Source of the DNA: Polytrichum commune
Lineage: Eukaryota; Streptophyta; Polytrichopsida; Polytrichales; Polytrichaceae
Assembly: GCA_950295325.1 (NCBI GenBank)
Contig: OX485808.1
Location: 22,404,527 to 22,468,526 of the forward strand
Length of the DNA: 64,000 nt
Direction of reading: 5' to 3'
Shown here: piece by piece, positions 1 through 46,204 of the stretch
How the letters are laid out: the number at the start of each line of letters is the position of its first letter
How positions within the stretch are numbered: the stretch's first letter is position 1
Translations under genes and position numbers: made by a program
Notes under the pieces: model-generated
Databases searched by the model: none
What the model was told of the DNA's origin: nothing
What the model saw: the letters and a program-made list of their open reading frames with translations, nothing else

Positions 1-51
1 TTTAGGGAGTCCGTCCCACTAGTACGCTTCTAGTCACACTAGTCCGACCCA

Positions 52-1024
52 CTATTTTTTTTTGGCGGCTAAGTCCTTTTTTTTGGCGGCCTCCATGGCT
101 CTAAAAATCTCAGGCCCACGACTGTATCCTTGTGTGTTGCCTGGACAGGAATATGTGTTGTTCTTGCATGTTTCAGGACGCGCTCCCGAATTGTACGAGG
201 TGGTATTATAAGTAGAATACGAGGGCGTTTGCGAAAGGGAACGTCTTGCGCTTCTCCGGAGGGCCAGATAACGATCGGACTCGGAAGATGCGGCCTTGAG
301 GGCGTGCCTATCCAAGGAGGACGTGGAGGAGGGCCGGGCACCAAGCGAGCGGGTAGCCACCTGCGAAACAACGTCATAGGAAGATAAGAATGGGAATGGA
401 GTGGGGAAAATAATGAGGGTGGTTTGGGATGGGCGCTCGTAAAGAGAACGACACGCACACAGAAGACAAGCAAAGCAAAAGCGGGAAAGGGGTTTAGGGT
501 TGAGGAGGCCACCTTGGCTTTGGGGACGTCCATGCGGGGAACGGTGGGAACGAGGGGGGCGTCGACGGGAGCATCCGGAGCCGATGGAACTATTGCACTG
601 TTGGATGGCGGGGGGGGGAGTCGATGCCTAGAGGGCCCACGATCGCGGAGGACGTTGCGGGGGGAAGAACGGAGTCGGCGGGGGCAAAGTCCATGCGGAG
701 ACGCCGGCTCGGCCCACGACGAGCGACGCCGTCGTCCCTAGAGGGCGAGAGGTGCCCCAAACGAACGAGCGTCCGTTTCTCCTTGGAGAGGGGGGAGGGC
801 GACGGGGCGTAGGCGCGGGCGACAAGTGCGGGGGGCGGGCTGTTGACGACACCATCGTCGATGCCGACGTCGCGGGAGTAATCCACGGCCGAGGCCGCGT
901 CGACCGCTGAGAAGTGGTAGAGGGATGGCATTTGGCAGTCCGTGACGTCGCGGGAAGGGGATGCAGGGGGCGAGAGGGGACGGGAAGGGCCGTCGACCAC
1001 GGGGGCGTCGCATATTGGGGCAGA
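52..1024 (-). CDS. Ala/Pro/Ser-rich protein, two exons, unrecognised (possibly broken)
   Basis: I do not recognise the product. On the minus strand an exon can be read from about 1024 (after an acceptor ending CATAG) to 513, rich in Ala, Pro, Ser and Arg, ending with PRMDVPKAK. A weak donor (GTGGCC) at 512 and a good acceptor (TTTCGCAG) at 361 lead in phase to a last exon, 360-52, starting VATRSLGARPSS and ending MEAAKKKDLAAKKK plus a stop. The frame is broken once, at the homopolymer at about 609-618, where a one-base slip is needed to pass from SAIVGPLGID to NSAIVPSAPDAP. That could be a mutation or a sequencing slip. The composition suggests a disordered protein. It lies just downstream of the phosphatase exon ending at 1138, so it may be that gene's C-terminal tail or a separate gene. 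Confidence 0.3.
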
Positions 1025-1137
1025 CTATGGGCAAGAACAACAAAAACAACAACAATCACAACAACAAAAGACATCCAAAACAGAGCAAGCATTAGATATG
1101 TGAACCACATGATAACAAGCAAAGACATGGAGGAATT

Positions 1138-3888
1138 TCAAATCAATTTATTGAGTTTGGTGAGCCTCATGATGCTCTTGAATACATTATCACGGGGGCT
1201 TAAACCCACATTGCCGATGGGGTTGGACCTAACAAAAAATGGTATGCTACCAGCGTGGACAACAAGCCTTCTAAGGTAAGGCGCTAGCGTATCGACCAAA
1301 AACGTGTCGTTCCTATCGCCGGTCCAAGTGGCGGGGAAGATGACGTTCCCCGGGGGGTTCAAGACGCTTTTGGTGGGGCTGTCGTCGACGAGGACGGTGT
1401 TCTCGGGGGTCGGCCACCACCCGTGGGGTACCCCCTGCAACCGGGGGATGCCCCGCCACGGTCTTGACCTCAGGACCTTGAGGAATTGTTGTCCTCCGCC
1501 ACGACCGCCGAACTTTGGAACCGGCATACCCTTTTCGTCAAGCAATTCATCGCAATCCTCTTGGCCGAGGATGAGGCAAGGGCTCGGAAGATTGCGGAAG
1601 AGGAAGTCGACGATTGGCTCGGTGTTCTCCATGACCATGGAGCTCCACATAATGACGTGAGCTACATCGAGCACCTCTCGAAGGAAGTCACGCAGGCCGG
1701 GACGGGCACGGACAGCCTTGCGGTTAATGAGCGTGTCGAGCTCTCCGTCGTAGTCCCTTTCGTCGGGGTGACGGAAGGGACGCGTGGGGACCCGGGGGAT
1801 GTGTTCGGTGTGACACAACACCCCGTTCAGGTCGAACACGACGAATGGTTTGTTTCGGGTAAGACATCCACTGGTCGAGGGTTTCCAACCTATCTCCGGG
1901 GGATCCTGTGATTAACAACTCGACTAGTTTAATTCTATGATCCAATAACTAACATTGCATTAAGGAAAAGACGATTATGTGAGGAAAATAGTGCAAGGAG
2001 AATGTGGTCAAGTGCAGACTTGCGAACGAGCGTTCGTGAATGAAGGCTGGGATGGCGCATCATTTACGAACGCTCGTTCGTGAAGGAGGTGGATAGATGG
2101 TCGCACCCTTTTACGAACGGGCGCTCGTTAATGAGGTGGGTGTGAAAGTGTAATGATGCGCATGAACATACATAATACAAGATGCGATACGATACAATAA
2201 GTTTGGGAGATGCGACGCAAAGATCATCTGCTCATATATTAATTCGGTGAATATTTACAATTGTCTCACGTGATAATTTTTCACAGTTTCCTATGGCAAA
2301 TACATGCCGTGTTCTACAAAATTTATCGGGCTAAGGGTCCACGTAGAGAAGGGTCCTCGCACGCCTCGTGATGCTGATGGACAGGTTCCGCCAAGAACAC
2401 AACGCGCATGGGTTAGTGGTTACGAACGCGCGTTCGTCAAATGAGTGGTATTCTCAAAGGAGAGTTACCTCGTCATCGGGGGGAGGGGCAGCGGCGCTGG
2501 ACCGAGCAGTTCCCTCCTCTTCGATTAACGAACGCGCGTTCGTAATCCCCATTGGGCCAGCCGCCTCTGTCTCCATGGCATCTGTGGCACGCTCCGACTG
2601 TGACGCCTGGGTCTGCACAATGTGGTCCGCGTCGTCGTCGTCGTCATCTCCGCCCAGGTCGAGAGTGTCCATGCGGACATCCTCCATCTCCGCGGATGGA
2701 TGTCGTCCCAGGTCAGGGCTCTCAACGTCCATTCCTTGGACAGCTGCCGCGTCATTGGGCCCCCCCTGCGTTTCCTCCACAATGACCATGTCAGTGTGTT
2801 GCGCAGATTCATCGCCCTTCCTATCCACTACCCTCGGGACGACTGTCAAAGAGGCGGTGTCAGTGACTGAGGCCAGTCCTACCCTTGGAGGGGGAGGGGT
2901 TAGGACTGCCGGACCTGAGGATTCACGAACGCGCGTCCGTAAATCTTCGTCCTCGCGTATGGCAGCCCTTATCGCATCGTGGGAGTTGGCGGGGGTGGCA
3001 GTCAATTGAGGGGGCGGAGGACTCCCAGCTGGCGTTGGGTGTGGTGCTGGTGGGTGCAAAGGTCCTCCGGGGAACATGCTTGGAGGGGGGGAATGGGAGG
3101 GGTATCCTCCGGGGAAGGGGTAAGGCTGTTGTGCTGGCGCCGAGAAGCTCTGCATATTTCTGAGCATCTCAAATATGGCGTCCGTCTTTGCTGCGGACTC
3201 CCGCAGCGCCTCCTGCGTGCGGGCCATATTTCTTGCACTCTCCTCTGCCGCAACCGCCATTTCCTCCTTCATTTTTTGCTCTAGCTTGGCATTCAGCTCG
3301 GCAACTATCAGCGCCTCCTCCTTCACCCGCTTGTTCTTGTCGTAATCGACCCCCAGCTCCGCCATGATGTCCATGTCCCCCTCGTCCTCGTCGGACACCT
3401 TGATGATTGCTCCCTCAGGCAACTCCACGTACGGCGACTTCTTCATCCTCCTCCTCGTGTTTCGGAAGAGGTCCAAGGATGGACGCGAGCGTTGGTCGAG
3501 GAGGTCGAGGGTCTCCATCCTCGGAACAACGACGGGTCTTGGAGACACTGAAGTCGAGCAGCCTCCAGGCGTGCCAAAGGGTTCCGCACCAGACACTCTT
3601 GCGGGGAGGACATCCTGGGTGGCACCCGCCGAGGATCCAGTACATCCAGCCGGGGTCCCTTGGTATTCCGAAGGCTCCCCCGATGGGGCCAACAACCGGA
3701 GAGGAGTGACATCCAAAGCCTGGAGGATGGCATCGACGTTGACGGAGGGGCCAGGCTCGTCGTCGTCTGTTTCCATGGGAGGCATGCCTTCGTCGGCCTG
3801 CATGTTGAAGTCCGTTCTGGGCATGGACATGTCAGCTAGGTCCATCGTCGACGGCGTCAACGTATGTGTTCACGCACAGCCCCAGCAT
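1138..3888 (-). CDS. disordered/coiled-coil protein with C-terminal FCP1/HAD-type phosphatase domain
   Basis: Exon 3888-2469 is open from ATG 3845 for 459 codons. It is acidic and Pro/Ser/Thr-rich, with a charged predicted coiled coil at about residues 170-235 (KEEALIVAELNAKLEQK) and a Pro-rich stretch after it. It ends at donor GAG|GTAACT (2469/2468). The next acceptor, CACAG|GATCC, opens exon 1905-1138, and both junctions are phase 0. That exon encodes a HAD fold of the FCP1/CTD-phosphatase type: FDLNGVLCHT, VIMWSSM, then LVDDSPTKS and LAPYLRRL. FCP1-type enzymes usually have DxDxT; here motif I is DLNGV, so the second acidic residue is Asn and catalysis is uncertain. The 563-bp intron holds four copies of the palindrome. 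An acceptor just before 3888 could join it to the upstream DGQHS gene, but then the frame breaks (stop after VDAVDDGPS), so an independent start at 3845 is also possible. Confidence 0.5.
2019..2131. repeat. palindrome cluster A (3 sites)
   Basis: Three dyad sites at 2019-2040 (centre AG), 2063-2084 (centre CT) and 2110-2131 (centre GG) match the consensus arm TTTACGAACG, two variable bases, arm CGTTCGTAAA. The third is degenerate (CGCTCGTTAA in the right arm). All lie in the intron that precedes the phosphatase exon. Confidence 0.9.
2419..2440. repeat. palindrome, intronic single site
   Basis: Left arm GTTACGAACG, centre CG, right arm CGTTCGTCAA. It lies about 30 bp inside the intron that begins at 2468 on the minus strand. 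Confidence 0.9.
2525..2943. repeat. two exonic palindromes, read in frame
   Basis: Site 2525-2546 (TTAACGAACG, CG, CGTTCGTAAT) encodes ITNARSLI in the minus-strand exon. Site 2922-2943 (TTCACGAACG, CG, CGTCCGTAAA) encodes DLRTRVRES. Both leave the frame open. They are the only copies inside coding sequence. Confidence 0.85.
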
Positions 3889-3916
3889 CTGAGATACAAA
3901 GGCAAAGATTCAGTCA

Positions 3917-4055
3917 TATACAAACGCGCGTTCGTAAACATAAAGGCTTCGAGCGAGGAAATATTAACAAAATAATTCACAAAACAATCATAAGTATCGG
4001 TTGCCCATGATAAATTGTTTGGAGCATGCAGTATTTACGAACGAGCGTTCGTAAA
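3917..4055. repeat. palindrome pair in intron or upstream region
   Basis: Site 3917-3938 (TATACAAACG, CG, CGTTCGTAAA) and the perfect 22-bp dyad 4034-4055 (centre AG) lie 117 bp apart. They sit in the 188-bp interval 3889-4076 that has intron-like ends (GTAAGC and ATCTCAG on the minus strand). Confidence 0.9.
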
Positions 4056-4076
4056 AAGTGGTGTGAGATGGCTTAC

Positions 4077-6821
4077 CATGGCCGCGTACATAGATTTGCT
4101 GCCCCCAAATACGTTGTAGACAATCTCGCCAGTCATCGCCAAACCCTGCAATATGGAGATGTAGAACTCCATCCTCAGCTCCAGCGCTGGGAAGACAGTG
4201 TACAAAGTCTCCTGGAAGAGATCCTTTGGAGGTGGGTGAGGGATGCTGTATATCTTCTTGAATGTGTTGTTCGCCTTTATGGGTGCTCGCCCATTCCTAA
4301 GCGCATTGTACGTCAAGAAGATGAGGCTCACCGCTCCCACCTGCTTGTTGCCTCTGGCCTCGTTTACGGCAACAATCCCCTCCGTCTTCGCTGGCACGTA
4401 TGTGCTGTGGAAGATGTTGTACTCAAACTTGATCTTGTTCTCATACAAATCGATGACGTCGGATTGCTTCTCCTGCTCCACAATCCACAGCCATACGTGC
4501 GGCTCCCTCATGGTCGGAGATTTGTGCTCCATGAATTTCGCCATGAAAGGGTTGTAAAAATGCTCCCCCTTCGCGCCCTGTCGCAAGGCACCGGGGATCC
4601 CTCTGAAGTCGATGACCGCGAAGGGACAACCCCTTCGATCCTCCCTGACCTCGGACCTGCTGAAGGTGCCATCCCACTTGGAAAACGTGGTCCTCTCCAG
4701 CCCCGTGGTCACCACACAAAATCTGGCAACGCCCTCGAATGTGGCGTTACGCTTCCTCTCCAAGAAGGAGATGTACCGCTGCAGCTCCTCGAGTTCTGTC
4801 TCGGTCTTCTTGGCCCTCTTATTGCCCTTGAGTTTCAGAACGGCGATGTGCTCTTTCACTAGGCTTCGCATTAAGGCCCCGTTGATGTTGTAACGCGACT
4901 TGAACACCTTCCAATTGGCCCAGTTGATGTCGCCGTCGACAAGGAAGAGGTGCATCTCTGGCACGAGAGCGCTAAGCTCTCACATCGCAGATGTCTTCAT
5001 CTTCCTATGTTCACACCACTCCTTGATGGAGTATGTTCCGGGCTTATGCTTGGGCCTCTTCAAAAAAATCTTGGGATATGGGATTGTTCTCCCAACTGTG
5101 TTCCCAAGTACATGAACCGCGCAGCGCTGAAGTTCGGACTCCGTGAGTCCTTGTAGGGACCTGAAAAACTCCCTTAGGAGTGGAGGGGCCTCTCCGGTCT
5201 TGTCCGAGCTGTATTTCTCCTCGGTGTCGGGGTTCACGAGATCGCCCGAGCTGTGCGCGTCAAAAAATTGGGTCCACAACTCCCAAGTGTCCCTGTTGCA
5301 GCAGATGAGACGGAGCTCACCCTACAGCTCAAGTACTGACTTTGTGGTGGTGGACTTCATATCGATAGAGGAAAATTTGTCCACCATCGCATCGCAAAAT
5401 GCCTACAATGCGAAACAAATGTCAATGTTGCTCTAAATACGAACGCACGTTCGTGAAATGGAAACTTCATGAAAAATAGAAAATTGAAATGCAGTGACTT
5501 TTACGAACGTTCGTTCGTAAACATACCTTCCACTGAGGAGATTGGGTCTTCGCGTTCTCTCTCTCTTTAAGTGGGCAACCATGTGCCACCCAGACATCTC
5601 GTGCAGCCACTATGTTTGCTGCCCAGGACGCCTCAAACGCCTTTATCTTATTGCCGGAGTTCAAGAAAGTTGAAATCTTTCGGAGCTTGTCCCAGTCGTC
5701 AGACCACACCAAGAAGGCCTTCCAGTAGCGCAGGTCCGCCTTCAGCTCATGCTGGAAGTTATCGTCCTTCAGGATGAGATGCGACGCCTCTAGGCTGTGC
5801 TGTCCATCTATGATCCAGAACTCACCATTCTGGATCCGGGGCCAATCTTTCTCAGTCGGACGGGATGTGAAGCCCTTCGGCATCACGCAAACGGTCTGCC
5901 TGTCCCACTTGACGTTGTTCATCAAATTGTTAATTTGCCACTTGACACCCCTGCTCTCACGAGACCTCACCACCCACTTGTTTGGCGATTTCTCGCACTT
6001 GAAGCAATCAACATGAATGTAAAGTGCCTCCCCATGGGTCAGCAATCCTTTGAGTAAGTGTTGAAGTCTCTCAGGATTCTGGTAACCTTCACGGCGTCCG
6101 GGTTTTCTCCCTTCTTCAAAGGAATTGGCATAACGGGAGGCGAGCTCACCTCCGCCGTCTCTGTTACACCCGATTTTTCCAAGTCATCCCTTGTCCTTTT
6201 GGATGGCGTGGACTGTCTGCTGGGCCCGTCCGTCCCCCGGCTCGCGGATGGCACAGGCCGGGCTGCACTTCTCGAACCTCCTGCCCCGGACACAGAAGGT
6301 TTTCTAGGACTCTTCTTCTTCTTGTTCGCCTCGGCGACCACACTGTTATACTTGGAGATGTTTAAAGCCAAGGCAGTTAACTTTCTAGCTGTCCAGTACT
6401 GGCTCAAAGCGTACTTTGTGAAGTGATTCTGCAGGTTGAAATGCTTGGCCTCTTCTCCCACGGTCAGAATGGCGTAATTGTGGGAGAAGGAGTGCTCCAT
6501 GTAGTGCAAGAGGAGGTTGATGTGGTCCTTATTGTTTTTCATATCCAAAATGACGTAATCCCCTTGGGCCTCTATTGACTCTATTTCCCATGTCTTCATC
6601 TGCACCCATTGTTCTGGCTGGTCCGGTCTCGTCTCCAGCTCGTAGGTGAAGCGCAGGACAAAAAGACCGTCTTCGGTTTTCTCTGGCAGCGCTGTCCACT
6701 CCCCCATGAAGTCGATCTTTGGGACGTAATTGTCATTGTCGTTTGTATCCGACACTGACTGTGGCAGGCTGTCCACCTTCACTGCGAACATCTCGATGGC
6801 ACTCCTGGTTGATCTAGCCAT
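4077..6821 (-). pseudogene. DGQHS-motif (DGQHR/ParB-like superfamily?) protein gene with lesions
   Basis: Reading starts at ATG 6821 (MARSTRSAIEMFAVKVD), directly after a possible acceptor GTGCAG. The first exon runs to 5527 with a reading-frame shift at about 6045-6055 (NTYSK continuing as GLLTHGEALYIHVDC). It contains a basic Ser/Pro-rich segment (about residues 165-240) and then WIIDGQHSLEAS near residue 335. That motif resembles the DGQHR signature of the ParB/sulfiredoxin-like superfamily; the resemblance is to the motif only. A 123-bp intron (5526-5403) has GTATGT and TTGTAG ends and two palindromes. The second exon, 5402-4077, is in phase but carries TAG at 5324-5322 and TGA at 4982-4980, with clearly related protein on both sides (SVLEL, GELRLICC, SAM, ELSALVPEM). 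It ends at donor ATG|GTAAGC. Three lesions argue for a recent pseudogene; codon reassignment or assembly errors are less likely alternatives. Confidence 0.5.
5436..5521. repeat. palindrome pair inside a 123-bp intron
   Basis: Sites 5436-5457 (centre CA) and 5500-5521 (centre TT, perfect arms) are 64 bp apart. Together they make up about a third of the small intron 5403-5526. Confidence 0.9.
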
Positions 6822-6852
6822 CTGCACAATGATGTACACTTTTAGTAAAGTA

Positions 6853-7298
6853 TTTACGAACGTTCGTTCGTGAGTGGTACCACTAGGCCGCAGACAATGT
6901 TGTTTGCATTGTTGGTTTGGTTGTATAACATTTCATATATTTGATCTAGAGGCCTTTGATCATATTTACGAACGATCGTTCGTAAATAGTTGTTGGTCGG
7001 TTTAATTTACATTTCACGTTTTTACGAACGTGCGTTCGTAAGATTGATATTTGGTTTGAATGATTTCACAGTAGTGTGTTTATCACTGACAGTATGTTGG
7101 TGTATGTTGTTTTGTATCGTATATTACGAACGAGTGTTCGTAAAGTTTTGAATTTGTGTTGTGGGTGAAGGGTATTTACGAACGCGCGTTCGTAAAACTC
7201 CTTCGCATGGGCTTTGGGTACGGGTATTTACGAACGAGCGTTCGTAAAAAGGGTTGGGTTAGGCAATGCATTTGCATTTACGAACGCACGTTCGTAAA
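6853..7298. repeat. palindrome cluster B (7 sites) upstream of the DGQHS gene
   Basis: Sites start at 6853 (centre TT), 6965 (AT), 7021 (TG), 7123 (AG), 7175 (CG), 7227 (AG) and 7277 (CA). Those at 6965, 7175, 7227 and 7277 have two perfect 10-base arms. The last four are spaced 52, 52 and 50 bp. The cluster begins 32 bp before the putative start codon at 6821, so it lies in the promoter, the 5' leader or a 5' intron. Confidence 0.92.
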
Positions 7299-9057
7299 TG
7301 TGGCTGGTTTGGCTGTTCACATATTGTCCATATATATACGGTTTCGTATATATACGAATACATATAGGGTAGAATGTGCTTATTCATGTGTAGAATGCTT
7401 GCAAGTGCGTGGTCAGAACGATTGAATTGAACAAAAAATGAAAAACACAACATATCTGAGCTTCAGAATGATTAGCAAAGCTCAGATTGCATGCAAAACC
7501 TGCCAAGGCTCACCCTTCAAACAATGCAAAAGGAAATCTACAATGAACCAATTCAGGATGTGGGTTGTGAAGCAAGTTGGATGGAATGTACTCACATTGA
7601 AGTGTTCCTTGACAAAAATTGGTTCTCCCTTGCTGAAAAAGCCACACAACAACACACAAATCTACAATGCCTGTTGTTGAAATGCACTCTTGCACCACTC
7701 ACTCATTCACCACACTTTCAAGGCCTCACTCTTTATGTACAAACCCTAACAAATCTACAATGCCTGTTGTTGAAATGCACTCTTGCACCACTCACTCCTT
7801 CACCACACTTTCAAGACCTCACTCTTTATGTACAAACCCTAGCGCCTAATCTGGTGCAGCTACAAGCTTCAAGCTTCAAGCTTTCAAATCCCAATATTCA
7901 AACTGCAGGTGAGTCTACTAGCGCTCTTGCAACCCTCAAGCTCCCTACTCACAATAAGTCACCTCTCAAGCGAAATATGCAACTCAAACACAACTTCAAG
8001 CAAAGTAAAACAAGGCAGACTACAATCCGGCAGAGCTTCGCTTCGAATATTCTAAACTCTCCTCTCCTCCTCCTCTCTGTTCCAAATGAGAATGAGGAGA
8101 AGTGGGAAGGGCCGCGGGGTGGTGGCCGGCGCCGTTAGGGTTTACCCTTGGCTGCCACGTGGCGTTCTGCCAATGGCGACGGCCCAATGCCGTCCTTTCA
8201 TTGGCGACGCTCCACGTGGGGGGATGGGGGGATGGGGGAAATGCAATTGGAGATGGATGTAGATGTAATGAAGGGGGGGCGTAAAACATGTGTATATGTA
8301 TTATATGTAATGGAAGCATTAATCACATTAACTTAAAGAACTTAGTATGAAGACATGAATTTTGATTACCGTATGCCCTTAGTACATTTACTATTAGATT
8401 CTTTGTAAACATATTTTCAAAACAACCTTAAGTTAATTCGTATTGCACAATATATGCATTTTGTGCGATTGCGATGAAGAATCCACCCCCAAGGATGTGT
8501 ATATGGTGTTGTACAGTATAGAGTTTTCATGAACGAGATAACTTTAAGATTGAACCGTCGTTCTTCAGGTATATATGACATAGTACTTAAAGGACCCAAT
8601 TTGAGATTGTTTAGAGGCCCTATTCGCTTATTCACAAGAGGTGGAGGAAAACTCAATCTCCAATAGGACGTCAATTGAATCATTTAATTGGGCGTCAACT
8701 TGAACTAAAAATTGTACAGTGCATTGAACTTTAATTTTCAACAATGATGGGATTGCATTTAACCAATGAGCCATATGGTCAGATATCTCGCTAGCATCAA
8801 ATGTATGGAATAGGTTTCCAACGAAGAACACACCCCTAAGGATGTGTATATGATGTTTTCAAATAATATACAGTTTTCGTAAACAATATAATATCTTTCA
8901 ATTCGAACCATGGTTTTTCAAATCACTATTACATTCATAAAGGACCAATTTGAGATTGTGTAGAGAGGGTATCATCAACTTTGAGCTTGCATAAATTAAG
9001 TTAGTGCAGTACGGGTTTCTAGGAGTCAATATTGTTTGTGTGTGTGTGTAATGTATC
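7299..9057. other. gap in the palindrome field; no gene recognised
   Basis: No palindrome occurs here. The stretch holds a 93-bp tandem duplication (7658-7843) and a GC-rich patch around 8095-8225 with two CCACGTGG sites in an imperfect inverted arrangement. It also holds two diverged direct copies of a segment containing AAGGATGTGTATATG (about 8465-8625 and 8820-8975). Short open frames are present but look non-coding. Confidence 0.6.
7658..7843. repeat. 93-bp tandem duplication
   Basis: Two near-identical copies of a 93-bp unit that begins AAATCTACAATGCC and ends CAAACCCTA. Only a few substitutions separate them. Confidence 0.9.
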
Positions 9058-9068
9058 GTACTAATGAC

Positions 9069-9126
9069 AAAACCCTAAACCCTAATACACAACTATCACA
9101 AACCCTAAACCCTAACCCTAAACCCT
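9069..9126. repeat. interstitial telomere-like tract (CCCTAAA)n
   Basis: Two short runs of CCCTAAA/CCCTAA (9069-9086 and 9099-9126) match the plant telomere heptamer on the complementary strand. They are too short and degenerate to be a chromosome end. Confidence 0.8.
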
Positions 9127-9728
9127 GCATCCCTACATTTTTTTTTTATACCATGCCAATTGTTATTTTGAGATTCAACATTAATAGATTTCGGGAAAAG
9201 CTTTGGTTTGGGCGAAAAGTGAGTGTTGAAATGCTCCATCTTCCCCCTTAATACTCTTCAGTGCTATTTGATCACATAATCCAAACATGGGATCATTATA
9301 ACATGCATGTCTTAAGACTTTACTGTAACTCAACACTTTTATCTAATACAAGCATCCACATACTTTTGACAGGATGTAAAACACATAATTTTAAGTGTGA
9401 CTTGTCATAAGTATGGTTTCATTTCTTATGATTACTCTATCATATTGATCATTCCAACTTAATTAAACATTTCCATACATGCCATTTTAATTTATTATTC
9501 CTATACCTATGGTTACATTTGAATTTAGTCCTAACTTACATCTAGTTATGATTAGATTCATATTATCCTCAATCTACCCTAGTACAAGCCATTATGGATT
9601 AACCCATCTTTTTAATGGTTTTCACACACTTGTGAGCATATTACGGGCGTGATTCGATGTGAATCATATGAGCATTCCTATAATTTTAGGGGCCTCCACA
9701 ACTTGTTTTTAATTGAGTTTACCTTAGT

Positions 9729-9764
<36 letters not shown>

Positions 9765-10030
9765 ATCACATTCATTCATAACATATATTAGGTTTCCATT
9801 GTCAATTAACTTGGACTTCACAACTTGGTCGCAAATCATTTAATATTCTATATTGACCAGCATCATATTATGATATTATGTATCTATTATATACATATTT
9901 ATATTCATGAGACCTTGGTAACACCTAAGGTTTGCGACCGATTTACATATTTTCAATATCAAGTTGCGTGTATGCAATACATGTTCCTTACATAATGCTA
10001 TTTAATATATAATTGCGCATGGATGGAATG
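9127..10030. other. AT-rich spacer with a TA/CA microsatellite
   Basis: AT-rich DNA with a (TA)n then (CA)n tract at about 9728-9764. I see no coding region or transposon end. Confidence 0.6.
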
Positions 10031-10036
10031 ACATAC

Positions 10037-10247
10037 TTGTAGGTCAAAGTAGGCGGCGGGAATCGGCTTTTTTAAGAGCATCCAAGGAATTTTGAACCAT
10101 CGTAGACAAGTACTTAAAGCTCTTCCCCCCACTGCAAAGCTCTTTTCTGCGGTACACGCCGGGTGCGCTCCAGAGACCCGACGGAGCTCGCGGAAGGCAT
10201 TTTCGTGTGCGCCAACCCCCACCTCCCAGGTACACGACAACCTTCAC
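10037..10247 (-). other. GC-rich exon-like island
   Basis: On the minus strand this GC-rich patch is open in two frames and ends at a donor-like CAA|GTATGT at 10037/10036. It could be an upstream exon of the DGQHS gene: its phase 0 end fits a possible acceptor GTGCAG just before ATG 6821, giving a 3.2-kb intron. The competing frame (VQNSLDALKKADSRRL) looks equally protein-like, so the reading frame is undecided. Confidence 0.25.
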
Positions 10248-10277
10248 ACCCGCATATGCCGCCGTAAATACCGGGAT

Positions 10278-10911
10278 TTTACGAACGTGCGTTCGTAAAG
10301 CACACGATCTGGCACATATATAAATGGGTCAGATAAATGATGGTGGGTAGTTTACGAACGCACGTTCGTAAGTACCGTATAAGCAGTCCGAGTTCAGAGA
10401 CCTATAGATACACGTGCACATGGGTAGTCACAGGCAGTGCATATGAATAGGCATATTCATATTGTAGATGTCATTGATATACGAACGCGCGTTCGTAAAT
10501 ATGTACACCAGCCTCATAGAAATGTATACCTGTAGTTCGACCATTTTCTAGTTCTCTCCACAAGCATATAGGATGGACGGGTATTTACGAACGCACGTTC
10601 GTAAATCACACGATCTGGCACATATATAAATGGGTCTGATAGATGATGGTGGGTAGTTTACGAACGCACGTTCATAAGTACCGTATAAGCAGTCCGATTT
10701 CAGAGACCTATAGATACACGTGCACATGGGTAATCACAGGCAGTGCATATGGATAGGCATAATCATATTGTAGATGTCATTGATATACGAACGCGCGTTC
10801 GTAAATATGTACACCAGCCTCATACAAATGTATACCTGTAATTCGACCATTTTCCAGTTCTCTCCACAAGCATATAGGATGGACGGGTATTTACGAACGC
10901 GCGTTCGTAAA
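10278..10911. repeat. palindrome cluster C (7 sites) framing a 306-bp tandem duplication
   Basis: Sites start at 10278 (centre TG), 10351 (CA), 10478 (CG), 10584 (CA), 10657 (CA), 10784 (CG) and 10890 (CG). Units 10301-10606 and 10607-10912 are near-identical tandem copies with a period of exactly 306 bp. A palindrome sits at the left edge, at the junction and at the right edge (10278, 10584, 10890). Confidence 0.92.
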
Positions 10912-10983
10912 AGCCACATGGGATTATTGTGCACGCAGGCATCACCATCACTGATTGTTTCTGGACTTTCAATATGACAGTTA

Positions 10984-11519
10984 TATGCGAACGAACGTTC
11001 GTTTTTCCTCACGACCATTTCAAACGTATACTCGTAGATTCATCAAATTTCCGAACGTTCGTTCATAAATACAACCTGGGATTATGTTTGCCGCATCCGA
11101 TATTTTACTTAGAGACAAACATTGCTGCATGTAACCCCACAGTAGGGCAGAGAACTTACAGACGCACGTTCGTAAATATGACGTTCACTGATTTTCAAGT
11201 GAACGCCAGGATGTGGTACCTGTCATTTGCCACGACAGACAGGGTGGCATGTCTTCAGGTATCGTATGGCCTGAGTTATTGGAATTGCGCTGGGTCCAAG
11301 TGTGATTTACGTATATTGTTTTGGGAAGAGCTTACGAACGGCCGTTCGTATATTTAACCTGTCCTTGGTTGGTGTGCTATCCTCGCTATGGTTGTGCAAA
11401 TCATATGATCACCCTTCACGAATGATATATATCACAATTTGCTGCCGGTGTCAATTGCCATGGGATTTCCATGCAGTGTTTCCATGTCTTGGTATTCTTT
11501 TCGAACGTGCGTTCGTCTA
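10984..11519. repeat. palindrome cluster D (5 sites) upstream of the DUF7869-like gene
   Basis: Sites start at 10984 (centre AA), 11048 (TT), 11155 (CA, left arm decayed), 11331 (GC) and 11498 (TG). They are more divergent in their outer bases than clusters B and C. The last ends 90 bp before the open frame at 11609. No further copies occur to the right in the window. Confidence 0.88.
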
Positions 11520-11608
11520 TTTTTGTGGAGCCTTCCGTTGGTGCCCTTACAGTTGTTTGAGTTCTGGGCCATATATTTGGACATCTAATTTGTGCGCTTT
11601 TCTGAACA

Positions 11609-14600
11609 TTGCGATGGTTTTTGTTTGTTCAGGTGTTGGTGGTTTGTTTAGGGACAATGGAGATGCATTTGGGAGATATTTCATTGGAGTTGTCTACTAA
11701 TGCATCGTCCGCCGATAGTGAATGCGAACTATCTTTCACGTCGGCGGATGGTACTGACGTTACAAACGTGGTGGGGGTGCCTATGGATGCATCCCCCGAT
11801 CAGACATTTGAAGGGCTCGAACAATCTTTACATTCCGGGGATGACCACGGTGACATTCCGTTGTCTACGGGTTTTGGAAGAGAGCAATGGGTAGGCCTTG
11901 ATGTTGTTCTACTTAACGACCTTGGGGTACCGGTGGCAAATGGCATATGTCGAAATTCCGATCCCCGTGATTGTATTGATGCCAACCCCCTCGGTGACGA
12001 CGATGTTGGTGTTTGCATCTTGAATTCTTTGCTTCCACTTGAGGTTCCGGTGACATGGAGATTTTCCTTGCGTCGATGGCCCCTTCGTCGAGTTCTACAT
12101 GAAGAAGTAAGTTTGTGGAATCATGGGCGGCGGCACAAACAAACGCAATCAGCTTTGTTGGCCAAATTACCTCCTCGCAAAGGCCTTCGCAGATATGATT
12201 CTAACCGCGTGCCTCGTGGTGATAAGGAGCGACGACGGGATCGCATATTGGGAGACGATTCTATCCGTCTCGTGTCCGCCAAGGACTGTTGCGCGAGGAG
12301 ATGTTGCCAATTTTTTCCTCGCGAAAACATTAGGTCTCTTCGTGAAGAGATGTGGCTTGCCGATTTCCGTATGAGATCGGCAAAGAAACTCGAGGTCCAC
12401 AGAAATGTGCACATTGACACCCATGGGCATAAGGTGGTCACACTAGAGAATGTGGAAGTGTGTTGTACCGCGTGGTATACCATCCATGCCGTGTCAAAGT
12501 CTAACTTTTATAGGTTTCAAAAGTATTCATCGTTGGGTCGCCGCTCTCGATTTCATGGAAATTTGGGCACAAAGAAACCTCCGGAGGCTACACTCCAAGC
12601 CTCGGCGACACTCTCCACGATCATAGTGCCATTGGCCGATGCAATGCCCCACAAGACAAGGACATTGTCATCAGGGAAGAAAGTTGTTCAAATGGTGTTG
12701 CCCACGGGCACAAAATGGAAGAACATATTAACGGACATCAACGAAGTGGGTCGCATAGCGGGATGTGAGCCCATTTCTTTGTCCAAATTGAGTGTGATTA
12801 AAAACCAACAGTTTGTGGAATACATTTTGAAGAGACCCGGAGACAAGTTCGCTGGGTATACGACGTGTGAAAAATACAAAGGTCTTCGAGACGCCCACCC
12901 CATAGGCACTGAATCTCATACCAGACACCAGACAAAATATATTGAGCATGTCAACAACCAAGAGGCACACCGTCAAGATTACTACAAAAATCGTGCTCTA
13001 TCTATAATGAGGCCCACAGAGGTTCTAACAGTTATCCATGATAAAATGGACCACGCTAAGACCGCATGCCCTTGTTATGCACGCAAAATAAAGGCCACGG
13101 ATGGTCTCTTCAAGTTGCCCGTGGCTGTCACAGGTTTGTATGAAATCACAACGACGTGTTCAAAGTCTATCAAATTTTCTTGAGTGTGTTTGGCAAATGT
13201 TCAACTCCATACATCCATTTAGTAGTTATTCCATTTCATCCAATTTTGTTCACGCATCGTTTGTTTTTTCCATGTATGATTGCGCATGGTCATGGGGATG
13301 TTAAGTATGCCCATTATGGTTTGGATTTTTACCCTGGAGATGCTAGCCACACGGTGGGTTCATTTGCAAGACTCTTGCGCGATCTTGAGCAGCCACCGGT
13401 ACATTCCTCCCGTGTACTTTTTGATGGTTGTGGAACGACACCCCTTTATGAGGCAGTGCTTGCGGGGAGGGAGGTTTGTATGTCGTCATTACGGGAACCA
13501 TCTAGAGAATCCATTTGTGCAAAACCATTGCCTCCAACTCTCCACGTTCAACTAGATAATTGTGCGAAGGACAACAAATGTCGATACGTATTTTGTTTTT
13601 GGTCATTGCTCGTGGCAAAAGGAATCTTCAAAGAGGTGTTTGTGTCTTTCTTGATGGTGGGACACACACATGACGACATTGATGCGTCATTTGGCCGTTG
13701 GAGCATGAAGTTGCATGAGGAAGATTTTCCGACAATACCACTTCTTATGAAATCATATATGGATTTAGACCATATGCCGGTGATATCGCACATGATTGAG
13801 GAAGTACCAAATTTCAAGGCCTTCATCAAGCCATACATGTTGAAGGGAGTGGACCGTTTGGTGGGACATACCAAAGCGCAACAATTCCGATTTTATATGA
13901 GGGATAATGGTGTCCCGGCCATGCAGTTCAAGCTTTTATGCACATCTCCTAATTGGGGCCCGGATGATGGTATACTCGTATGGCGTCAAGACAAGGATGG
14001 GAAATGTTTGGTCCCGGATGGGGAACCAAAGCCTTGCAAACCCGAACCCATGAGAAATGGGCCGGAAATCATCAAAGGCATATCCGGATTCATTGAATAT
14101 TGGAAAGAGTTGTGCGAGAAGGACATCACAAGACGTGTTAGAGATACCCATGAACCGTTGATCGCGTATTGGGATCGCATTCGCTCAGCCTTGATGACAC
14201 TTGGTGGTGACATCCGTACGACTTTGACACAAGGATTTTGGCCACAAAGTCGTTTGACGGTTGTCGAGTCCGATACTATGTTTTTCAGGAATGGAGACGT
14301 TCGTGAAGAGTTCGCAATGGACGAGCATTACGTTGGCCCTGCCCGCAATCGGCCGGCACCGTCGTTTCGTGTTGATTGTCATGAAGGTTATTTGGTCCTC
14401 GTACGAGCAGGGGATGAGGAGCATCCCAAACCAATTTGGTTGGTAAAAGCATTGTCTTCACCCAATTTTGTTCGAACTAGCCCCAACTTTCGTCAAATTG
14501 AGGTGGAATATTGTCGTCCAAGCACTAAAGACCAGAACGTGCTCCGCACTTATTTAGGTTGGGACACCAAAAAGAACTTTAAGTGGACAGTGGACTCAGC

Positions 14601-14787
14601 GTACACACCGGTTTGGATAAACACGGATACTATACTTTGTGCTTGGAAGCCGCGCAAAGGTTCCAACACAGAAACAATGACCATCCCCCAAAAACATATA
14701 GATTTTGCCAAAGACAACTTGGCACATATTGCAGCTGTGGAAAATGACGCCGAGAATGGATATGAAGCGGAAGATGGAGATAGGTAG
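11609..14787 (+). CDS. DUF7869-like, probably transposon-derived protein (two exons)
   Basis: Exon 1 (ATG at 11609, or more likely 11657 at MEMHLGDISLE) runs to donor ACAG|GTTTGT at 13133/13134. It contains a Cys cluster (KDCCARRCCQFFPRENIRSL) followed by TAWYTIHAVSKS and later HDKMDHAKTACP. Exon 2 has HVQLDN at about 13545-13560 and VGHTHDDID at about 13657-13682, then a long C-terminal part ending DAENGYEAEDGDR. The LDN and GHTHxDID signatures match my recollection of the DUF7869 family, often found in repeated, transposon-like proteins; a DDE-type nuclease role is inference. The combined length is about 1000 aa. A canonical acceptor at 13221-13222 keeps frame but adds a hydrophobic stretch; a cleaner join (LPVAVTG to MIAHGHG) would need a noncanonical end at 13273. 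No internal stops are seen in the two main frames. Confidence 0.6.
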
Positions 14788-14819
14788 ACATAACATAGGT
14801 GAAAGTTAACGGCGGAAAA

Positions 14820-15243
14820 AAACATTAGTACTTAGTAGTCTTGGTTTTTAATAGACTTAGTAGACTTGTCACACTCCATTGTGGTATACGTTTGGGATGT
14901 GCCATCCAAAACCATAAGAACCTTACTTATGGGATGCGCACCCCAAACTCTATAATGACATAAACCATTTGTTTTTTAGATTCGCTTGTTATTTTCCACA
15001 TGGAGTTCATGTTTTCATTATAATTGCAATTTTCTATTTTTAGTATTAAGAATATTCTTTACGTGCGAATTTTTAAATTGTCATGTTCTTGATGTTCCCA
15101 ACATTCCATATGCCCACAATATTGGCATCCCAAACTATGGGCATATTTTATTTTGAGACTTTCAAAAGTCTCCGATTAACGAATATAGTGTTTAAGTTTA
15201 TTAATATTGCTATTACATATTGCATTTTTATGTATAGTCAAAT
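14820..15243. other. spacer with a small inverted repeat
   Basis: The DNA between the DUF7869-like gene and the Harbinger remnant is AT-rich. At about 14890-14957 GTTTGGGATGTGC and GCGCACCCCAAAC form an imperfect stem, and a related GCATCCCAAAC lies near 15127. This may be a decayed transposon end. Confidence 0.4.
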
Positions 15244-16380
15244 ATGGAGACTAGAAGGGGTAGTACTTATGGTAGAGGTATTGTAAGTGGAGGGCATGGT
15301 GGTAGGCTTGGTGGATGGGAGAATGGTGTAGCTTTAACTATCCCACCTGTCTCCTCCAATGCTTAGTGGTCTGATAATATTGTCAGGGATTTGCTTGAGA
15401 AATATGTGCAAATGTATGTCTTTGATGGTAGTTTTATAAACTTTATTCTGAGGATGTGGAGGGGACTTCTAGAGCACATCAATCCAAGACTATCTGATTG
15501 TGAAATGTCATTTGTTTATACTCTTGAGTAGGTGAAATTCAAAATTGATACACTGAAGAAATGGTATCAAAAAAAGAAAGAGGAAAAAAAAACGAATCAG
15601 AGATGGGTAAGTCAATGATCTGGCAATTGATGTCGAATTCAAATCAACAATAAAATTGCATCATAAAATTGATTTTTGCATGACATATACAACATATGAG
15701 AATTTGTATGATATTATAAAACCATACATAGAGTATAGAGATACTAATTATAGAGAAGCATTGTCAGTTAAAAGAGCAATAGCACTAGTACTCCAGAAGA
15801 TGGCATTTGCCCCAAGCGATTGTTATATCATAAATGAATTTGGAGTGGGAAGAGCAATTGTTTCCAAATATACAAGATTGGTTTGTAAGGCATTGGTTGA
15901 CAAGGACAAATTGTATTCTAGATTTATTAGTAGTTTGAGTGGTGCAAGATTACAACAAATCATGGAAGGTTTTCATAATATGACCAAACTCCCTCAAATG
16001 TGTGGTGTTATAGATGGTTTCCATATCAAGTTAGCGTACAAACTTAAACGAGCATATATGCATGTTGATTATCGGAGTCAACATGATGAACACATGGTAT
16101 TGATACAAAGAATTGTGATCATGATAATAATTTTCTATCATGATAATAACTTTTGAAAGCAAACAATGCTCAAAGATCAAATAGGGGGAATAAAGATGAA
16201 TTTGATAAGTATTTACAACATAGAAGGGTAAATGTAGAAAATACATTTGAAAATTTAAAGAACCGATGGATTATACTAAGGGCATTAAATTACAGTATCA
16301 AACATGCAAAATAAATAACAATTGCATGTTGTGTGTTATACAATTTTTGTAGATACGATAATGATAGAAGTTCTTGTTAA
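15244..16380 (+). pseudogene. degenerate Myb/SANT domain followed by a PIF/Harbinger-type transposase remnant
   Basis: From 15244 one frame reads METRRGSTYGRGIV and then, after an in-frame TAG, a Myb/SANT-like domain: WSDNIVRDLLEKYVQMYV, MWRGLLEHINPRLS, and after another TAG VKFKIDTLKKWYQKKKEE. Further on, 15656-16156 contains MCGVIDGFHIKL, the first-Asp region of a DDE_Tnp_4 (HARBI1-like) transposase. About 16190-16370 reads RRVNVENTFENLKNRW and ACCVLYNFC, typical of the region around the third catalytic residue. The central part with the second Asp is missing. Harbinger elements normally encode these as two proteins, so this is an inactive, internally deleted relic in one orientation. Confidence 0.7.
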
Positions 16381-44180: not shown

Positions 44181-46204
44181 GTAATAGATTTGGACACCTG
44201 AAATCTATCCCGGAGTGGCAATTTGCAATGACCCATGATCCTTTTAGTGTAAACAATTGTGTGAGTTACGAACGACATGCAAGAACTTAATGATGTGGCA
44301 GTAGCAAAGGAGGGGAGGTCAGACACAAGGTTCTTGTCCGTGTGTGTCCCCAAGCGGCTGCATGGGGGAGCCTCGTTCTTGAAATATACAAAGGTAGTGT
44401 TGGTCATCTCGAATCTCGATGATGTGTCATGCCCTTATTGGATACAAGCATGTCAATTATAAACCATAGAGTGACCCGATGAGAGCTTGTTGATGTGTCG
44501 CGTCCTCATCGAGCACAAGCATGTCGAATATGGATCATAATATCTGGTTTTCGTGAGATGATCAATGTTGTGCCTAATATTGTACATGTGCCACTTGTAA
44601 CATGGCTCCTCGCATGCAATATGTAGTAAGTAGCATGCCATCCTCATGGCATGGTCATCACTACGTTTGATGTCGTACATGTTTCCCCATGCTACAAGCC
44701 ATGGGATTCCTTGTGCTATTACCGTGTCATTCCCACAACTCGGTAAGTAGCACGAGGATTATTCGTTGTAGCAGTGCTCCTCGTGTATAACATCTAGTTC
44801 GGAGAGGGGTCCAATCACGATAAGGCGTCCCAAAATTGTGTCACGCGTCACCCTTTTTTCATAATCATTGACACTCCTTTGAGTTATTAGCAAGTTTGTT
44901 ATTTTGAACTTTGCATAGGTTTATAGTCGAGATTTAGCACAATCATAGAATTGTCATCATAGAATTGTTAAATCAACCACATAGTTTTGCTAAAACGACC
45001 ACAAAAGCACGTTGCGCACTCACATGACGAGTCAAAGTTTGATTTTTCCATCGCATACATGAAGAGGAGCAAGGTATTAGCTCTATGTTAGAATTGATAA
45101 ACATAGCCAACTTGGATGACAAGTCAAAGCATGGTCGACACCTTACATATTGACTATGGTCGTTTGAACCAATGTGTGTTCAGTTTAGTAATCCCCTTTA
45201 TTTAGTGCTTTGTACTTCCAATTGGCATTGTTGCCTCAAACGTGAGTCTTTAGTGAAATGCAAGGACTTCTTTCTACTACTCAGTCCTTAGTGGCACGCC
45301 TTATCATTGTTGAGCATTCCTCCAACATGGTTTGAAAATGTCGGGTGCTATTTAAAAGAGTGTCTAAACACTGACATGAGTTTCGGGTCGATGAATGCAA
45401 GTGTTATTTGGTTATTTTTCTTAAACAAACACCTATATTTGATTGGTGTGTGGTTAGGTGAGGATCAAAACCAAACACCATAAATACACATGTTTAAAAT
45501 AGATTGGACTCCATCCTCAATTAATTTTACCCCATAGTGAACACAATTGAAAGGACCTATGTGTTCAATCGAGAAATCAACAAACATTCACTTTCGATAA
45601 TCGTAACCGACTAAATAGGGTCCAAGGTCCGATCTTTGAGGATGCTTCATCATAGATGTGTTAATGCAACACAGGTTGTGCTGTGTATATTCCACTCGGT
45701 AGAAGTTGGAGAACCGAATGACACCCGCATACCTCACATGTCATCGAGTCGCTACACTCAATATCCAAATTAGTGTGTGTTACTATGTGGACCTACGCAA
45801 TGCACTAACATCTTAGTACTCGGGAGTTCAATTCTCACGAACGAAAGTTCAGTAGGTTGTTCGGACATCACAGAACACAAATGACTTTGCTTGGTAAAAT
45901 ATTGCAATCTCTCATAAAGTAGTGCATAATTCCAAACAGTAACACACACGAATTGGGATATTCAGTGTAGTGAAGTACACAGTGGAGTCCGAAGATCATC
46001 AAATCATCAGTGGTACTGCACACAGCGATGGATCACAATTAAAGGCTCCGGAGTCGTTCCATGGTTGGTCGGAAGCAGGAAAAAAACCCTCGAAACAACC
46101 ACATCATACGTATAGATCCACAACAACCCGGCTGCAGGTAGCCAATGATGTCAATGGTGAGGTAAAACTGACAAGAGGATGTTGCTGAGGAAAACCATGA
46201 CCAC

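Follow-up and report, generated by a model that had tools for sequence, protein, structure and literature searches.

A stretch of 64,000 nucleotides from Polytrichum commune (assembly GCA_950295325.1, contig OX485808.1, positions 22,404,527 to 22,468,526 of the forward strand), hereafter the window, raises the question of why a dyad site of 22 base pairs (bp) should recur 29 times within one block of 9.5 kilobases (kb), at 2019-11519. This block is the interior of a 15,543-bp DNA transposon of a family named A here (C6:22404176-22419718), and related transposon families of the same genome carry dyads of the same form with other sequences. We infer, with moderate confidence, that the dyads serve as family-private sites to which a dimeric element-encoded protein, probably the accessory one, would bind in order to act on its own promoters and introns.

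The array was first described in a sequence-only reading, which counted 29 copies confined to the block and held a chance origin not to be credible; both statements stand. When the 14-bp core pattern CGAACGNNCGTTCG was scored with up to 2 mismatches, 32 matches were obtained in the window, against a mean of 0.64 and a largest value of 3 in 100 shuffles of it. Among them, 29 are distinct sites within 2019-11519 (22 exact), and scoring of the whole 22-mer likewise gives 29 places with at least 15 of 20 letters, all in this block, plus one weaker place (14/20) at 422. As for the three remaining core matches, the one at 10992 overlaps another site, the weak one at 762 (1 mismatch) is within the transposon but outside the block, 1.1 kb from the left end, and the one at 45838 (2 mismatches) is compatible with chance. 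Near 7135 and 10669, the decay of CG to TG or CA pointed out in that reading is present as well. In the whole genome (408 megabases), exact copies of the core number 6137, whereas the reversed pattern gives 26; the first 100 places, which are all on contig C1, are clustered and not uniformly scattered. Since the genome searches score the best candidates and the pattern searches list the first 100 places, copy numbers and genome-wide clustering are rough here and below. Within the window, the dyads are distributed as follows:

2019..2546: dyads 2019, 2063, 2110, 2419 and 2525, in the region of the accessory gene's 3' end, 2525 being inside its last open frame
2922..4055: dyads 2922, 3917 and 4034, 2922 being within the final open frame of the accessory gene and the other two between two open frames, probably in an intron
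5436..5521: dyads 5436 and 5500, between the exon with the GQH motif and the next exon
6853..7298: dyads 6853, 6965, 7021, 7123, 7175, 7227 and 7277, immediately upstream of the inferred accessory ATG, part of them in a 52-bp tandem unit
10278..11519: 12 dyads, from 10278 to 11498, immediately before the open frames of the transposase, some of them in a 306-bp tandem unit

Except for 2525 and 2922, the sites (27 of 29) lie outside the accessory and transposase exons of the inferred gene models. In the window copy, about 2.4 and 3.7 kb separate the outermost strong sites from the element ends, and no second dyad array was found in the window outside the element.

Some of the clusters on C1 repeat the dyad spacing of the window in reverse order, and alignment of the window, extended 8 kb leftward, to four of them delimits a shared block from -351 to 15192, whose ends are inverted repeats beginning AACACTATATTCG:

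1..15192: transposon interior and right end, the left end lying 351 bases before window base 1 (C6:22404176), as defined by alignment with other copies, ends and target duplications
15168..15192, minus strand: right terminal inverted repeat, reading AACACTATATTCGTTAATCGGAGAC inward, with AACACTATATTCGGTAATTGGAGAC as its left partner
15193..15196: right 4-bp target duplication TAAG, its left copy being directly before the left end

A 4-bp duplication, identified by eye, is found flush outside AA...TT in all eight A copies with both ends in hand (TAAG, ATCA, ATAT, TGGC, GTAT, ATAT, TCCA and ATGG), the right end reading CT or AT instead of TT in two of the eight. These are the window copy and seven copies chosen by pairing end matches with matches to DUF7869, the domain of a protein encoded in the element; four further loci, E1 to E4, in which no intact end pair was seen, were excluded from this check. 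The two ends gave 653 and 818 first-look candidates in the genome (best 40 scored each) and the DUF7869 protein gave 1934, of which the best 79 were scored; these places, among them the one in the window, are 88-100% identical, and 56 of the 79 lack an inner stop. The element is thus a DNA transposon with terminal inverted repeats, target duplications and many dispersed copies. This bears on the three origins that the sequence-only reading had left side by side. A tiny mobile palindrome is a misfit, the sites being at matching positions in several 15.5-kb transposon copies and some being multiplied within tandem units; recombination sites look unlikely, the strong sites of the window copy lying more than 2 kb from the element ends; and binding sites for a dyad-recognising protein encoded nearby appear to be the best supported option.

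Is such an array peculiar to family A? The genome was searched with the DUF7869 family (best 150 of 1491 candidates scored), and 12 loci were picked among the matches for their differing open-frame lengths, blind to dyads. At least two sites of one dyad type were found in 10 of the 12, and at least six in nine of them (F502, F692, F677, F975, G588, G870, G543, G631 and G762). All dyad types share one form, namely a 10-bp arm, a free 2-bp spacer and a second 10-bp arm, and their exact cores were counted in the genome, where the reversed-pattern controls gave 0 for each type other than A:

type A: TTTACGAACG, with the genome count given above
type A': TTTACGGACG, 1382 exact cores
type B: GTTTGGGTCG, 9231 exact cores
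type C: CCCACGGGTG, 819 exact cores
type D: GGGTGAGGCA, 155 exact cores

The locus G610 carries CCCACGGGCG twice, which is a symmetric one-base change from C plus one outer mismatch. Sites with up to 3 mismatches, a tolerance at which A and A' are too close to be separated, were then counted in 18 loci, that is, the 12 (one lengthened), the window copy, E1 to E4 and a locus A2, the last five having been chosen as dyad-bearing. Dyads are held by 16 of the 18, each with one class only except E3, which has 5 B sites beside 30 A sites and also contains B-like DNA; ten shuffles of each of five loci gave zero sites. When up to 5 mismatches were allowed, isolated sites of other types appeared in the window copy (2), E1 (1) and E2 (2), and A sites in the A' loci A2 (1) and G543x (2). 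The sequence-only reading had called the window sites CpG-dense, with partial CG decay, but CpG density or methylation as a theme common to the dyads was dropped, the D arm GGGTGAGGCA having zero CpG. Two loci deserve separate mention. In the D-related locus G604 (L035, position 5886, reverse-complemented piece), a single perfect 10-2-10 dyad, GAGGTCTGCG-GC-CGCAGACCTC, may be a further dyad type; in G309 (L036), a D-like accessory gene and the transposase abut with almost no DNA and no dyads between them, an arrangement that looks like an internal deletion.

The genes around which the dyads are placed, with their putative exon limits, were delimited from open frames and from alignment with other copies:

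11606..13183, plus strand: 5' open frame of the transposase gene, with matches in E1 and in families B and C
13144..14787, plus strand: DUF7869 open frame, the probable transposase core (Pfam PF25273, E-value (E) 7.9e-39)
6042..6821, minus strand: N-terminal part of the accessory gene, with an inferred ATG at 6821
5491..6033, minus strand: GQH domain of the accessory gene (IIDGQHSLEA)
4035..5321, minus strand: second large exon of the accessory gene, methyltransferase-like by eye only
2454..3869, minus strand: C-terminal open frame of the accessory gene, acidic and proline-rich
1138..1911, minus strand: NIF/FCP1-like phosphatase-family protein (Pfam PF03031, E 1.1e-15) with a DLNG motif

The DUF7869 protein, from a plus-strand gene of at least two open frames, is the probable transposase; the accessory gene is divergent from it on the minus strand and is followed by the phosphatase-family gene. 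The accessory gene of the window copy shifts frame between 6042 and 6033, and its second exon is interrupted by an in-frame stop at 4980-4982; in some other copies these parts are open. The phosphatase-family gene was met in loci of A, A', B and C (by Pfam for A and C, tblastn for B and by eye for A'), including L045:3405-4226 on the minus strand. The usual phosphatase motif is DxD, and since it is replaced by DLNG or DVNG in A, A' and C, the protein may lack phosphatase activity. A further open frame, at L044:2471-3016 (minus strand), adjoins a C-type transposase; it contains the GNHR motif VWEGNHRVTAW and looks ParB-like by eye, with no match above the cut-off. Directly to the right of the element, the open frame 15611-16156 (plus strand), without a Pfam match, resembles a Harbinger-type transposase. 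Besides, telomere-type AACCCTAAACCCT repeats are present in the DNA examined, and scans of the window with Rfam at the gathering threshold and for tRNAs were empty.

Which of these proteins would read the dyad may be approached by comparing the families. The A and B elements have the outer 13 bp of their ends identical and both show the 4-bp duplication, the one B copy examined having a perfect 28-bp inverted repeat with CTTC on both sides; ends of C and D elements were not found. With one sequence per family, identity to A is 79% in the transposase core and 45% in the accessory domain for B, 86% and 53% for A', 53% and 25% for C, and 41% and 28% for D. The dyad and the accessory protein thus seem to change between families while the ends and the transposase core stay more alike, which would fit the accessory protein as the dyad reader without being a proof. 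In addition, the dyads foretold the place of an accessory gene. In the C loci F692, F677 and G762, no such gene was visible in the DNA first examined, but the C dyads on C1 suggested that the element extends further, to another group of sites about 13 kb past the transposase promoter. The place predicted from this spacing beside F692 holds a minus-strand gene with VVNGQHTLAA, related exons and nine C dyads, as well as a phosphatase-family gene (Pfam E 4.6e-11), and we infer that the F692 transposase and the neighbouring GQH gene are part of one C element.

The sites are also kept more strictly than the DNA around them. The 14-bp cores of 27 window sites were compared with 40-bp flanks in other loci: in E1, E2, E3 and G631, with 18, 19, 20 and 18 of the 27 sites aligned, core identity is 94, 97, 97 and 91% and flank identity 71, 60, 64 and 62%, a contrast that is likely somewhat inflated, as local alignment of tandem arrays may pair dyads that do not correspond. 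G543x and A2 were left out of this range since their dyad differs (2 of 27 sites aligned in each, cores 64% and 71%, flanks 60% and 63%). Among 178 A sites in eight loci, all 16 spacer dinucleotides are found, and deviations at the six inner positions of each arm amount to 0-4%. Changes present in both arms exceed expectation in A (13 vs 7.3), A' (11 vs 4.1), B (8 vs 2.1) and C (6 vs 3.4) and fall below it in D (9 vs 18.6), so that the outcome of this arm-coupling test is mixed. Finally, the accessory exon within family A is, as far as a saturated synonymous divergence (dS) can tell, under strong constraint (nonsynonymous divergence (dN) 0.08 and dS 3.6 for E1-E3); the transposase gave dN 0.031 and dS 0.256 between the window copy and E2, and dS was out of range in 6 of 8 dN/dS pairs.

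Taken together, these data would be accommodated by the following mechanism. The GQH accessory protein, most likely, would form a dimer reading the two arms and tolerating any two middle bases, as the equal arms and the free spacer suggest. It would occupy promoters and introns of its own family's copies and keep these copies expressed, or shielded from host silencing; the placement of the strong window sites at both promoters and between exons, away from the ends, suggests such a control of expression or chromatin and not cutting. The different dyads of related families suggest in turn that each family's protein serves its own copies, and private sites would let it do so with host genes and other families left undisturbed.

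Several observations weigh against this reading. The 12 loci amount to about five dyad types and not to 12 independent cases, F692 and F677 being 99.8% alike, G762 being 98% like F692, and F975, G588 and G870 also being close; moreover, G309 and G604 have no dyad array and G610 has two sites only. The accessory gene of the window copy looks broken, though the copy retains an open DUF7869 frame. Comparison of the accessory protein with known DNA-binding families yielded nothing significant, and structure predictions for the GQH exon and the second exon, made from single window sequences, reached a mean predicted local distance difference test score (pLDDT) of about 36 only. Family B has four weak matches (14-15 of 18 letters) at 0.16-0.49 kb from its left end, so that the sites of this family are perhaps not strictly internal. 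Finally, the transposase also differs between families, and it, or a third protein, could read the site.

The first of these two candidates leads to the alternative that we take most seriously, while still holding it unlikely: the dyads would bind the transposase itself and assemble a transposition complex, like the subterminal repeats of other DNA transposons. The four weak B matches within 0.5 kb of the left end would agree with this, as would the part before DUF7869, which is less conserved (60% between A and B) than the core; the dyad-bearing loci among those chosen all have a DUF7869 match as well, but by selection. Yet about 2.4 and 3.7 kb lie between the ends and the nearest strong window sites (1.1 kb for the weak one at 762), many sites are between exons, and the dyads of A and B differ although the outer 13 bp of their terminal repeats agree.

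A bolder form of the accessory-protein reading, which appears doubtful, is a self-recognition code in which a ParB-like protein would load at the family dyads, spread over the element and block silencing, families switching dyad and protein together; if true, it would be a eukaryotic clamp of the bacterial-centromere kind, serving as an epigenetic shield. The identity searches are relevant here. No significant match to the accessory protein was obtained in Pfam, NCBIfam or PDB searches, the best being DGQHR TIGR03187 at the motif in the A protein (E 0.31, far below the cut-off); the C accessory protein gave no match to a ParB/DGQHR profile and none of such kind in PDB. A beta-class DNA methyltransferase was not supported, with no Pfam, NCBIfam or PDB match and no DPPY-type motif seen by eye in the translated frames inspected. 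Searches with the GQH alignment gave 53 pattern matches in viral contigs and 100 in genome contigs, with zero confirmed relatives. The ParB-like and methyltransferase-like labels are hence resemblances by eye, for both of which the profile searches failed.

It is quite improbable that each family has captured a host transcription factor for which the dyads are binding sites. Their clustering at both divergent promoters of the window copy would suit such a factor, but at least five sequences of one 10-2-10 form would demand several host factors of equal geometry, and there is no second array outside the element in the window. Less probable again is that the dyads, instead of binding a protein, form hairpins in RNA or DNA, whether as cruciforms, as structures within introns or as triggers of silencing. 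The arms are long and perfect, many sites are between exons, and changes in both arms are more frequent than by chance in A, A', B and C; complementarity would nevertheless suffice for a hairpin, with no fixed sequence required, whereas the arms hardly drift within A (12 identical symmetric changes in total among the 178 sites) and differ between families, both-arm changes are under chance in D, and a 2-base loop is poor for a hairpin. Finally, that the arrays are functionless, neutral by-products of tandem repeat growth is hardly credible, for although tandem units contain several of them (units of 52 and 306 bp in the window, sites about 78 bp apart in B and 59-61 bp apart in D), cores are 91-97% and flanks 60-71% identical and lone sites between exons are kept outside such units.

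With the accessory protein as the favoured reader, the element may be set beside known systems. CACTA/EnSpm ends begin with CACTA and have a 3-bp target duplication; this assignment was rejected both by the ends, as the element begins AACACTA with a 4-bp duplication flush outside AA/TT (8/8 A copies and one B), and by the transposase, Pfam at E 0.1 giving only DUF7869 for 13144-14787. VANDALs are Mutator-like, with a longer target duplication; no Mutator-type transposase was found here, Pfam giving DUF7869 only and the duplications being 4 bp. Maize Spm/En TnpA acts on its own element, as is proposed here, and activates its methylated promoter, but Spm sites are short subterminal motifs, whereas the window copy has its strong sites, which are 22-bp dyads, in the interior. 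Bacterial ParB binds the palindromic site parS and has a motif of similar look, but no significant sequence match to the accessory protein.

In Sola1 elements the target duplication is 4 bp, with which the duplications here (eight A copies, one B) agree. The nearest known gene layout is that of Sola1-1_Ec32 of Ectocarpus, a 21.5-kb DNA transposon with an accessory gene opposite the transposase, reported as ParB-like and with a DNA methyltransferase, and it is suggested there that such accessory proteins bind and modify their own element (PMC12477816). The placement of the accessory gene is identical here and a ParB/DGQHR-like motif is seen by eye, but the two corresponding labels failed in profile searches, and binding sites or family-private dyads are not named in the available part of that paper; the dyads would propose target sites for opposite-strand accessory proteins like those of algal transposons (PMC12477816).

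The nearest known logic, with different parts, is that of VANC in Arabidopsis, anti-silencing being suggested here by analogy. According to the reports, VANC proteins bind short family-specific motifs in noncoding VANDAL parts, such as introns and upstream regions, and induce loss of methylation, and these motifs spread by tandem repeats and differ among related families (PMC5735166, PMC10398659), much as the five dyad types do here by family. The VANC21 motif described there, YAGTATTAY, has nine bases and is arrayed in one orientation, in contrast to the 22-bp dyad, and the ends, the 4-bp target duplication, the DUF7869 transposase and the GQH accessory protein also set the present elements apart. 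The term DUF7869 was absent from the literature searched, and among the titles and abstract openings listed there was no report of family-private dyads in such transposons, the VANC paper being the nearest. If the favoured reading is true, protein-site pairs that diverged within one genome would show how a DNA-binding protein and its target change together, with symmetric changes of a single base leading from A to A' and from C to the G610 form as steps between close families, and they would test whether private sites are a general means of transposon escape from silencing, beyond the VANDAL families of Arabidopsis.

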